64,000 nucleotides of DNA from Bacteroidota bacterium (lineage in GTDB: Bacteria > Bacteroidota > Bacteroidia > 2-12-FULL-35-15). Positions 26,269 to 29,944 of the stretch are shown here, one piece after another (position 1 is the stretch's first letter; every line of letters starts with the position of its first letter). The notes beneath the pieces were generated by a model, which saw nothing but the letters and a program-made list of their open reading frames with translations, made no database searches and had not been told where the DNA came from. Both the position numbers and the translations under genes were made by a program. Location of the stretch: contig JAFLBF010000012.1 in NCBI GenBank assembly GCA_017303895.1, positions 1 to 64,000 of the forward strand, given 5' to 3'.

Positions 26269-26910
26269 TTATTTTTTTCTAACAATCATTAAACCATCTC
26301 TCAAGGGCAAGAGCATATGTTCCACTCTTTCGTCCTGATGCACTTTCTTATTAAAAGCATCTATCAATAGTGTGTCGGTATCTTTATTCTTTTGAAGATC
26401 TAACACCTTTCCACTCCACAACACATTATCAGCAATGATATATCCACCTGTCTTTACTTTATCAAATATCAAGTCATAATAATTAGCGTAATTCTTTTTG
26501 TCTGCATCAATGAATACTATATCAAACTGTTCTTTTAAAGAAGGAATGATCTTCATTGCATCACCAATCATAATATTTATTTTACTATCCAGACTAGCTT
26601 CCTTTACATATTTTCTCACCATCCCTTCCAATTCTTCATTAACATCAATCGTATACAGCTTTCCATTATCGTTTAGGCCTTGTGCCAAACAAATAGCAGA
26701 ATAACCCGTATAGGTTCCGATCTCTAAAACACGATCGGGCTTCACCATTTTACTGATCATTGCCAAAAAGTTCCCTTGCATATGTCCGGATAACATACGT
26801 GGCTGCATCACTTTTGCATGTGTTTCTCTGTTAAGTTTGCTTAAAACAGAATTTTCCGGTTGAGAATGCGCTAAAGCATATTGCTCTATATTTTCGTCTA
26901 TAAATTCCAT
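26269..26910 (-). CDS. SAM-dependent O-methyltransferase (caffeoyl-CoA OMT-like)
   Basis: 213 residues from ATG 26910, the size of the class I, metal-dependent catechol/caffeoyl-CoA O-methyltransferase family (Methyltransf_3). The SAM motif [19 protein letters not shown] is intact; [18 protein letters not shown] holds the acidic metal ligands, and DNVLWSGKV completes them. The acceptor is probably a vicinal hydroxyl compound. First gene of a four-gene operon. Only a degenerate -7 element (TATTTTCG) is seen upstream. Confidence 0.9.
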
Positions 26911-27130
26911 ATTTTTTGTACCACGAAAATACACATTTATTTTAGCATAAAAAAGACACAAGAACTCCCCTAAAATGCCTAAAAAACAAGTAATCTACTC
27001 AAAAGCAACAACGGTTATTAACCACTTAGTGTTTATAAATTCAACAAGACTTCCGCGATTCACTTTTGTATTATTTAGACTTTTAACACTATTAATAGTA
27101 GGAGTGTATCCTGGTATCAACAATATGCCT

Positions 27131-29944
27131 ATGAAAAGAATTACAGCATTACTGATCGTTCTGTTATCATCATCCATCCTTTGCTTCTCCCAAAAAGGGA
27201 GTACATTTGGAGTTGATCTTAAAAAACTTTCAAAAGAAGAAAAGAAAAAGATTGAGACAGCTGAGCTCTTATATTCCGAAGGCAGCTATTTAAGGGCTTT
27301 ACCTTTATATGCAGAAGTATTCAATGTTCATCAGGATGAAGTCTACCTTAAATACAGAACAGGTATCTGCTATCTCTATAAAAGTGATGAAAAAGAAAAG
27401 GCCATAGAGCTCCTGAAACAAGTTAAAGCCTCTAATCCTAAAGCTCCGGATATTAATTTTTACATCGGCAGAGCCTATCATTTAAACTATAAATTTGACG
27501 ATGCGATCAATGCTTTTAATGAATATTTAGCAGAAGCGCCTTCTATCAATCAACGATTACTAACTCAGCGATACATCGATAACAGCAAAAATGGAAAAGC
27601 ATTTGTTGAATTAAAAGTTCAGTGCGAAATACAAAATGCAGGAAACACCGTAAATACAGAGAATCAAGAATACGTTCCGGTTATTTCATCAGATGAGTCG
27701 ATCATGATCTTTACATACACCGGACCGAATAGTACAGGCGGATTAATGGATGACGACTTTAATCCGGATCCCAATGGCTACTACTACGAAGATGTGTTCA
27801 TCTCCTACCGTGTAGGAAGTGAATGGCAAACACCACAAAGTATCGGATCAAGTATTAATACCAAAAATCACGATGCTAGTATTGCTCTCTCTGCTGATGG
27901 ACAAAAGCTATTCTTATTTCACAGTACCGAAGCCGATGGGGGTGACATATATATGAGTACGTTAAAAGGAGATGTATGGGAGACTCCTGTGCCTTTAAAT
28001 TCTAATATCAATACAAAATATTGGGAAGGTAGCGTTTCTCTAGCTGCTAATGAGCAAACACTTTATTTTGCCAGTGAACGTCCTGATGGATACGGAGGAA
28101 GAGATATTTATGTTTCTAGAAAGCAAGCAGATGGAACTTGGGGCAAAGCAGAAAACTTAGGACCTGCAATAAATACTAAATATAATGATGATTCACCTTT
28201 TATTCATCCGGACGGTATCACTCTGTACTTTAGCTCTGAAGGTCATAATAGTATTGGTGGATATGACATCATGTATTCTACTTTCAAAAACAATCAATGG
28301 GAAACTCCTACAAACTTAGGAAATCCGATTAACACAACCGAGGATGAGCGTTTTTACGTACTTTCAGCTGATGGTGAGCATGGTTATTTCTCTTCCGATA
28401 GAAAAGGAGGATTTGGTCAGCAGGATATTTACAAAGTAAGCCCTGGCTTTGAAGGAGAAAAACCGGTATTAGCTCTTGTTGTTGGTGTAGTAACTGCCGA
28501 TGACAAGCCTGTTGATGCAAAGATCAATGTAACGAATGCCGAAACAGGTGAGCAGCAAGGCACTTATCATTCCAACTCTTCAACAGGTAAATACCTGATC
28601 GCATTAACTCCGGGAAGTAATTATAAAGTAGCTATTGAAGTAGAAGGATATGAATCACAATTTCAATATGTAAATGTTAAGAGTTTAGAAACTTTCGTTC
28701 AAGTTCAGAATGACATTAAACTGGTAGCAAAAGGAACCAACCCGGAAGGAACTGCGGTGAAAGATAATACCAATGTCATCCAAGAACAGATCAACGAACA
28801 AGTCAAAAAATATAATGAGGAGAAGAAAGCTGAAGTTTACGAAGCAAGAGTATATCAATCATTATTAAAGAAATACGGAGATCTAAAAACGGATAGCACT
28901 GAATTTAATGTAGAAATTGGGACGTTTGAAAATCCATCCGACTTTAATCCCGAGAAATTAAAGGGACTTGGAGAAATTAAAACTAGAGTTGATGAAAATG
29001 GAAATACCACCTATTCAATTGGTCCATTTAAAAGTCTTTTAGAAGCCGAAATCTTCAAATACAAAGTCATGGACAAAGATACATCACAGCATAATATTGT
29101 TGTAACTGTTACTGATAAAGGGAAAAGGAAAATCATTCAACAATATTATTCCACGGAATACACTCGCAGAGATTACGTAAAACCAACTGATACAAAAGTG
29201 ATCAAGAAAAAAGAAAGAGTGATCGATCTTACATCAGGTGAAGAATTAAAAGGATTACAAAAAGATGAAGGCAAATCTGAAATTGCAGGCTTAACCTACA
29301 AGGTAGAGATTGGAGCATTTGAGAACCCTTCTGATTTCAAGTTGCAACATTTGGAAAAATATGGCAAAATTGAAGCTAAAAAATATCCTGATGGCAAAAC
29401 TCGCTATACATTCGGCCCTTTCAAAACATTAGCGGAAGCAGAAGCATTCAAGAAAAATTTAGTGGAAAAAGAGGCGGATGCAGCGAAATCATTTGTTACG
29501 GTGTTCTTCTTTGGCGCTAGAAAAACATTGGAAGAGCATCAAAACCCTTGTAATCCGAATGGGCCAACAGACTTTTCTTTCTTTGTTGGAAAAGACCTGA
29601 ATGATAAAGCCATTTACACCCAATTGATCGAACAGGCTGGTAACACGTGCGCTGAAGGTTTAACTTTCCGTGTACAGATCGGTGCCTACAGAAAGCCGCA
29701 AAACTTCAAACATAAAAACTTAAACAGTCTGGAACCACCTCCTGCACTGGTAACTCCATATCCGGATGGTATCACTCGTTTCACTATGCGTGAGTTTACG
29801 ACCATTAAAGATGCTGAGATATTCCGTCAAGAATGTATCCGTTTAGGAACAACAGATGCATGGATAACAGCCATGTACCAAGGAAAGAGAATGTTATTGC
29901 AAGAGTTGATCGCAAATAACTTCTTCAACAAAAAGATCAATTAG
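27131..29944 (+). CDS. Large envelope protein: TPR, PD40 propeller, carboxypeptidase-like domain and three SPOR-like repeats
   Basis: 937 residues from ATG 27131 (27125 also possible); upstream frame to 26975 lacks sense as a leader. Signal peptide MKRITALLIVLLSSSILCFSQ; TPR-like helices about 35-155; PD40/WD40-like propeller about 170-430 with repeats such as ALSADGQKLFLF, SLAANEQTLYFAS and FIHPDGITLYFSS; a carboxypeptidase regulatory-like beta-sandwich about 448-525; then three related repeats near 593-673, 723-790 and 845-926, each with (V/Y)xIG(A/T)(F/Y)xxPxxF and a later FGPF or REF segment. The first part copies the T9SS PorE layout, but the OmpA-type end is replaced by SPOR-like units. 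Probably periplasmic, outer-membrane-associated and peptidoglycan-binding. Confidence 0.87.
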   Translation: MKRITALLIVLLSSSILCFSQKGSTFGVDLKKLSKEEKKKIETAELLYSEGSYLRALPLYAEVFNVHQDEVYLKYRTGICYLYKSDEKEKAIELLKQVKASNPKAPDINFYIGRAYHLNYKFDDAINAFNEYLAEAPSINQRLLTQRYIDNSKNGKAFVELKVQCEIQNAGNTVNTENQEYVPVISSDESIMIFTYTGPNSTGGLMDDDFNPDPNGYYYEDVFISYRVGSEWQTPQSIGSSINTKNHDASIALSADGQKLFLFHSTEADGGDIYMSTLKGDVWETPVPLNSNINTKYWEGSVSLAANEQTLYFASERPDGYGGRDIYVSRKQADGTWGKAENLGPAINTKYNDDSPFIHPDGITLYFSSEGHNSIGGYDIMYSTFKNNQWETPTNLGNPINTTEDERFYVLSADGEHGYFSSDRKGGFGQQDIYKVSPGFEGEKPVLALVVGVVTADDKPVDAKINVTNAETGEQQGTYHSNSSTGKYLIALTPGSNYKVAIEVEGYESQFQYVNVKSLETFVQVQNDIKLVAKGTNPEGTAVKDNTNVIQEQINEQVKKYNEEKKAEVYEARVYQSLLKKYGDLKTDSTEFNVEIGTFENPSDFNPEKLKGLGEIKTRVDENGNTTYSIGPFKSLLEAEIFKYKVMDKDTSQHNIVVTVTDKGKRKIIQQYYSTEYTRRDYVKPTDTKVIKKKERVIDLTSGEELKGLQKDEGKSEIAGLTYKVEIGAFENPSDFKLQHLEKYGKIEAKKYPDGKTRYTFGPFKTLAEAEAFKKNLVEKEADAAKSFVTVFFFGARKTLEEHQNPCNPNGPTDFSFFVGKDLNDKAIYTQLIEQAGNTCAEGLTFRVQIGAYRKPQNFKHKNLNSLEPPPALVTPYPDGITRFTMREFTTIKDAEIFRQECIRLGTTDAWITAMYQGKRMLLQELIANNFFNKKIN

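Follow-up and report, generated by a model that had tools for sequence, protein, structure and literature searches.

The locus considered here, within a window of 64,000 nucleotides (the whole stretch of DNA analysed), raises the question of how a PorE-like envelope protein ending in three SPOR-like repeats instead of an OmpA domain might be anchored to the cell wall, and of whether it should be counted a component of the T9SS.

Architecture of the triple-SPOR protein

The product comprises, in order, a signal peptide, a TPR region, a PD40 propeller, a carboxypeptidase-regulatory-like domain, a helical connector and three SPOR units. The gene start at 27131 is backed by homologues and by the signal peptide, an in-frame ATG being listed also upstream at 26975 among the open reading frames. 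The features preceding the SPOR units are as follows.

27131..29944, + strand: whole gene, triple-SPOR PorE-like protein of 937 aa (ORF list, Pfam, homologues)
27131..27193, + strand: Sec/SPI-type signal peptide, residues 1-21, inferred cleavage between ...LCFSQ and K (read from the sequence and homologue N-termini)
27233..27610, + strand: TPR-type helical domain, residues 35-160 (Pfam TPR matches; helices in the full-length model)
27626..28441, + strand: PD40 beta-propeller, residues 166-437 (PF07676, E 9e-22; Foldseek)
28472..28723, + strand: carboxypeptidase-regulatory-like beta-sandwich, residues 448-531 (PF13620; strands in the model)
28775..28876, + strand: helical connector, residues 549-582 (full-length model)

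TolB, GH43 and sialidase propellers were among the top Foldseek matches to the propeller. The TPR matches (best E 3.7e-6) and the CarboxypepD_reg match (PF13620, residues 452-517, E 9e-5) both fell below their Pfam cut-offs, and the full-length model supports both domains. The PorE-type order proposed in a preliminary description of this DNA was thereby recovered, as was the proposed absence of OmpA from the C-terminus, no Pfam OmpA match being obtained even at E 10. Comparison of N-termini disclosed no lipobox, the predicted mature start lying between ..SQ and KG (homologues, ...AQK).

That the layout had no established name was likewise upheld: neither a named family nor a paper was found on searching family libraries and the open-access literature, and among open-access papers on SPOR with T9SS, gliding, PD40 or Bacteroidota no such protein was described. 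The architecture is real and conserved, a variant of the PorE-like wall anchors that carries no name in the libraries and papers searched.

Fold of the C-terminal units

The C-terminal part was resolved into three units, the second and third being separated by a conserved linker.

28898..29146, + strand: SPOR unit 1, residues 590-672, with Glu in place of RlpA Gln270 and no conservation at the Arg309 equivalent (paralogue profile, model, alignment)
29291..29542, + strand: SPOR unit 2, residues 721-804, invariant Glu726 at the Gln270 position (Pfam, profile, model, alignment)
29543..29659, + strand: linker joining unit 2 to unit 3, carrying an invariant Cys807, Cys840 (>90%) and a conserved DFSxFxGKDLND stretch (alignment)
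29660..29914, + strand: SPOR unit 3, residues 844-928, Gln849 and Arg883 in 35/35, the most conserved unit (profile, model, alignment)

A disulfide between Cys807 and Cys840 is possible on the strength of the alignment. The motifs that open the units were located at residues 594 (VEIGTFENPSDF), 725 (VEIGAFENPSDF) and 848 (VQIGAYRKPQNF), as against 593, 723 and 845 in the preliminary description, whose claim of three C-terminal SPOR-like units is borne out. When the whole protein was searched, Pfam SPOR (PF05036) matched residues 722-780 above cut-off (35 bits, E 1.8e-8), unit 2 being the sole unit to pass; units 1 and 3, searched alone, returned no Pfam SPOR match. SPOR was nevertheless the commonest Pfam family matched by the homologues at E values of up to 1, being recorded for unit 1 in 8/28, for unit 2 in 24/30 and for unit 3 in 17/30. 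Against a profile built solely from the tails of single-SPOR paralogues, units 1, 2 and 3 scored 42.3, 55.4 and 70.0 bits respectively, far over the best of approximately 1000 shuffles of each unit (10.3, 8.3 and 5.8 bits), so that the three-unit match cannot be ascribed to chance. Identity among the three units was 26-42%.

An AlphaFold2 model of the C-terminal half, computed from 30 own and related sequences, gave a beta-alpha-beta-beta-alpha-beta topology in every unit with pLDDT mostly 83-94, the SPOR-type arrangement that the preliminary description had anticipated; units 2 and 3 matched solved SPOR domains. Such domains headed the VIA-align ranking, unit 3 being superposed on CwlC (1x60: Z 9.0, 73 residues, 2.1 A), and unit 2 on RlpA in complex with denuded glycan (6i09, Z 8.1), on RlpA 6i05 (Z 7.9) and on DedD (6ztg, Z 6.4); unit 2 was also covered by 6ozd, an exported protein of Burkholderia (Z 9.3). 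The match of unit 1 to FtsN (1uta, Z 4.3) was at background level, and its assignment therefore stands on sequence homology and predicted topology. Foldseek, run with the three-unit model, placed CwlC at rank 17, a low position that probably reflects the uncertain relative placement of the units in the model; RRM/ferredoxin-like structures other than SPOR were also among the structure matches. When the PDB was searched by sequence with the unit profiles, those of units 1 and 2 retrieved no SPOR chain and that of unit 3 retrieved CwlC alone, weakly (E 0.2). Taken with the profile scores, these data leave very little doubt that the units have a SPOR-type fold.

Family and locus

The triple-SPOR family numbers 35 members in eight families of the class. 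Within the genus of the host the triple form was present in 13 of 36 genomes, tail identity being 65-86% among the others, and a class-wide sample of 395 genomes yielded 22 more genomes outside the genus, from seven other families; checked frame by frame, all encoded three units. The open frame in all 35 members, spread over eight families, led to the rejection of a one-off or an assembly artefact as an explanation. One neighbour is shared.

26269..26961, - strand: O-methyltransferase-like gene, divergently transcribed (family named from the sequence, not by profile)

This divergent gene recurred in 32/35 loci (20/22 outside the genus), which marks an old orthologous locus. The host genome also encodes a single-SPOR paralogue (L012:4618-6609; 46% identity over residues 11-530) on a separate contig from the triple-SPOR gene; in nine genus loci such a paralogue is adjacent or one gene off, and where the triple form is missing it is the single-SPOR paralogue that adjoins the O-methyltransferase gene. 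Between the triple- and single-SPOR paralogues of several relatives, on the opposite strand, lies a gene that by eye is CotH-like and seems to end in a T9SS sorting tail (L036:2433-4541, L035:8709-10790 and similar).

Is the protein a T9SS component?

The preliminary description had likened the domain order to that of PorE-type T9SS/gliding proteins. Matches to named families were confined to the N-terminal half: PorE (NF052230) scored 162.8 bits against a cut-off of 600, over residues 37-520 only, and the CHU_0125 family (NF053607), the best-scoring named family, 205.4 bits against 620 over residues 41-516. Identity with PorE was ruled out by the score, by SPOR instead of an OmpA C-terminus and by a signal without lipobox; identity with CHU_0125 was ruled out by score, C-terminus and signal type. 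A probable PorE orthologue with an OmpA-type end is encoded elsewhere in the host genome (L019:4908-7016, 541.6 bits).

A working role in the T9SS, as a PorE-type anchor that uses SPOR instead of OmpA to connect a PorP/SprF barrel, with its type B cargo, to the wall, draws on the N-terminal half held in common with PorE and on a host genome equipped with SprA (2630 bits), with 16 PorP/SprF proteins, genes which the preliminary description had proposed looking for, and with at least 34 type B cargo domains above cut-off, so that a link is possible. Furthermore, two PorP/SprF barrels of that genome carry a C-terminal SPOR-like domain (L110:6747-8156, G000:C18, Pfam SPOR 25.5 bits; L111:4263-5735, G000:C32, 18.9 bits, below cut-off), each immediately following a type B cargo gene and each with Val at the ligand Gln position, which shows tails of SPOR type in use on other proteins around the T9SS of this host. 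Against such a role, none of the 35 loci showed a porP/sprF neighbour, the gene conserved beside them being the O-methyltransferase, whereas other PorE-like genes of the host do adjoin porP (at C14, C1, C8 and C12); the host has a better PorE orthologue; and the triple-SPOR protein has no lipobox. Co-occurrence with SprA was discarded as a test, since SprA is near-universal (385 of the 395 sampled genomes) and hence uninformative. Membership of the T9SS is accordingly not supported, and we regard it as doubtful.

A separate observation concerns the middle one of three tandem PorE-like genes in the host genome (L013:6444-8705, G000:C8), which looks frameshifted in its OmpA domain after ...GHTDSKGR, either a real frameshift or an assembly error.

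Ligand-site residues of the three units

In RlpA, Q270, R309 and R311 contact the glycan, holding the lactyl group of the muramic acid and the N-acetyl next to it (PMC6895207). When residues are mapped by sequence motif, not by coordinate superposition, Gln849 and Arg883 of unit 3 correspond to Gln270 and Arg309, and each is present in 35/35 sequences; Gln849, Ala852, Tyr853 and Arg883 were invariant in the 30/30 aligned unit 3 homologues. The R311 equivalent is Thr, giving unit 3 a smaller basic patch than that of RlpA. In unit 2 the Gln position is occupied by Glu in 35/35, with an adjacent Arg or His, and unit 1 has Glu or Asp there in nearly all sequences (wherever a letter aligns), the Arg being lost. 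Gln is kept in 33/33 single-unit paralogue tails, in both units of the OmpA+SPOR proteins described below and in the units of the Asn-rich relatives; as the acidic residue is limited to units 1 and 2 of the triple-SPOR family, it cannot be attributed to alignment noise.

Two wider readings of the tail have to be weighed against this pattern. Were the units protein-protein or structural modules that had lost peptidoglycan binding, the acidic residues at the ligand Gln of units 1 and 2 would be accommodated, as would the breadth of a fold class (RRM/ferredoxin-like) that serves many contacts and supplied non-SPOR members among the structure matches; such a wholesale loss is improbable given the invariant residues of unit 3, the parent architecture, where a peptidoglycan-binding OmpA domain occupies this position, and the co-occurrence of OmpA with two SPOR units in related proteins. 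Less probable still is a high-avidity multivalent anchor in which all three units bind denuded glycan, as the preliminary description implied: three homologous units of one predicted fold speak for it, as do Asn-rich relatives (L011, L104) that are also triple, with Gln in all units and Arg in units 1 and 2, but the acidic replacements and a unit 1 that lacks the Arg, and that some families have in degenerate form or not at all, speak against it.

The residues point instead to what is probably one glycan-binding terminal unit accompanied by two repurposed units, and we consider it likely that unit 3 binds denuded glycan. Pairing of Glu726 with Arg758 could close the site of unit 2. The natural pair of Gln in unit 3 and Glu in unit 2 also offers a clean probe of recognition at the SPOR ligand site.

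Origin of the SPOR tail

One related family, f23, comprises four proteins with an OmpA pattern plus two SPOR units, mostly arrayed with single-SPOR paralogues.

L101:9455-12643: OmpA-type plus two SPOR units
L102:1391-4753: OmpA-type plus two SPOR units
L105:2960-6697: OmpA-type plus two SPOR units
L106:3076-6309: OmpA-type plus two SPOR units

Of the proteins scanned with Pfam (L101, L102 and L105), all three were confirmed to have OmpA and one to have SPOR, SPOR units without a Pfam match being called by our own SPOR profile. In a midpoint-rooted tree of the N-terminal core the main SPOR clade has these four at its base, which suggests an order running from OmpA through OmpA+SPOR to SPOR alone, with f23 as the likely intermediate. 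An AU test did not reject a single clade of all SPOR-tailed forms (p 0.31), a value compatible with one or with several gains of the tail. A clade of the triple forms alone was rejected (p 0.004), because single-unit proteins of family f41 nest inside; these keep a unit-3-like tail with its linker, the other units having gone, in agreement with one binding unit and two repurposed ones.

The host also encodes an Asn-rich relative of ~2100 aa (L011:2879-9187, G000:C3) with a short propeller, a long low-complexity middle and three terminal SPOR-like units; similar relatives occur in L103 and L104.

Proposed mechanism and significance

The reading favoured here, to which we assign a probability of roughly 0.6, is that the protein serves as an outer-membrane-side scaffold tethered through unit 3 to amidase-processed, probably septal or polar, peptidoglycan. 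It would be a soluble periplasmic scaffold, whose TPR/propeller/carboxypeptidase-like part, common to PorE and the CHU_0125-type proteins, would dock by analogy with PorE on an outer-membrane partner; that this partner is a PorP/SprF barrel is a tentative suggestion. The connector and the string of SPOR units would extend into the peptidoglycan, where unit 3, to judge from its conserved ligand residues, would grip glycan strands whose stem peptides amidases have removed, thereby tying the outer membrane to remodelled wall. Units 1 and 2, acidic in place of Gln, would most likely act as spacers or protein contacts, or recognise another ligand. The host encodes an N-acetylmuramoyl-L-alanine amidase (Amidase_3; L114:1894-3189, G000:C6) that ends in a SPOR-like tail (18 bits, slightly below the Pfam cut-off), a likely source of denuded glycan; the ligand should therefore be present, the septum or poles being the likeliest sites, although for the triple-SPOR protein itself a septal location is put at even odds. 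Against the tether stand the want of a lipid anchor for the outer membrane and of a porP neighbour, together with the failure of unit 3 alone to match Pfam SPOR and its Thr at the R311 equivalent.

The states of peptidoglycan recognised by OmpA and by SPOR are not the same. It is conceivable, if somewhat unlikely, that a PorE-like branch exchanged OmpA, which engages stem peptides anywhere, for SPOR, which engages amidase-stripped glycan only, so that anchoring became limited to remodelling sites, and that units 1 and 2 acquired within this branch an acidic site for another ligand, a SPOR specificity so far undescribed. A conserved exchange on one scaffold, with intermediates carrying both domains, would show how the chemistry of the wall guides Bacteroidota in placing outer-membrane anchors, and would widen SPOR past the known division proteins.

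Comparison with known systems

PorE (PG1058) of Porphyromonas gingivalis resembles the triple-SPOR protein in its TPR/beta-propeller/carboxypeptidase-like order, its periplasmic position and its C-terminal wall-binding part (PMC9143113, PMC7192894). A lipoprotein of the outer membrane, PorE binds PorP (PMC9143113), and its OmpA domain binds peptidoglycan (PMC7192894); it has one OmpA_C-like end, in contrast to three SPOR units and a signal without lipobox. In F. johnsoniae, Fjoh_3950 has been named a PorE homologue and proposed as a static anchor of surface complexes to the wall (PMC12618676). The PorE-like proteins of that organism, found in type B cargo/SprF operons, are operon-linked to a porP-like gene, whereas the triple-SPOR gene is not. 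The OmpA-like outer membrane integrity protein of the CHU_0125 family is alike over residues 41-516 but ends in OmpA. RlpA, FtsN, DamX, DedD and CwlC (PF05036), which carry SPOR on an enzyme, a lipoprotein or a membrane anchor, share the unit fold and, in unit 3, the ligand Gln and Arg; the triple-SPOR protein differs from them all in bearing three such units on a TPR/propeller scaffold, two of them with Gln replaced by an acidic residue.
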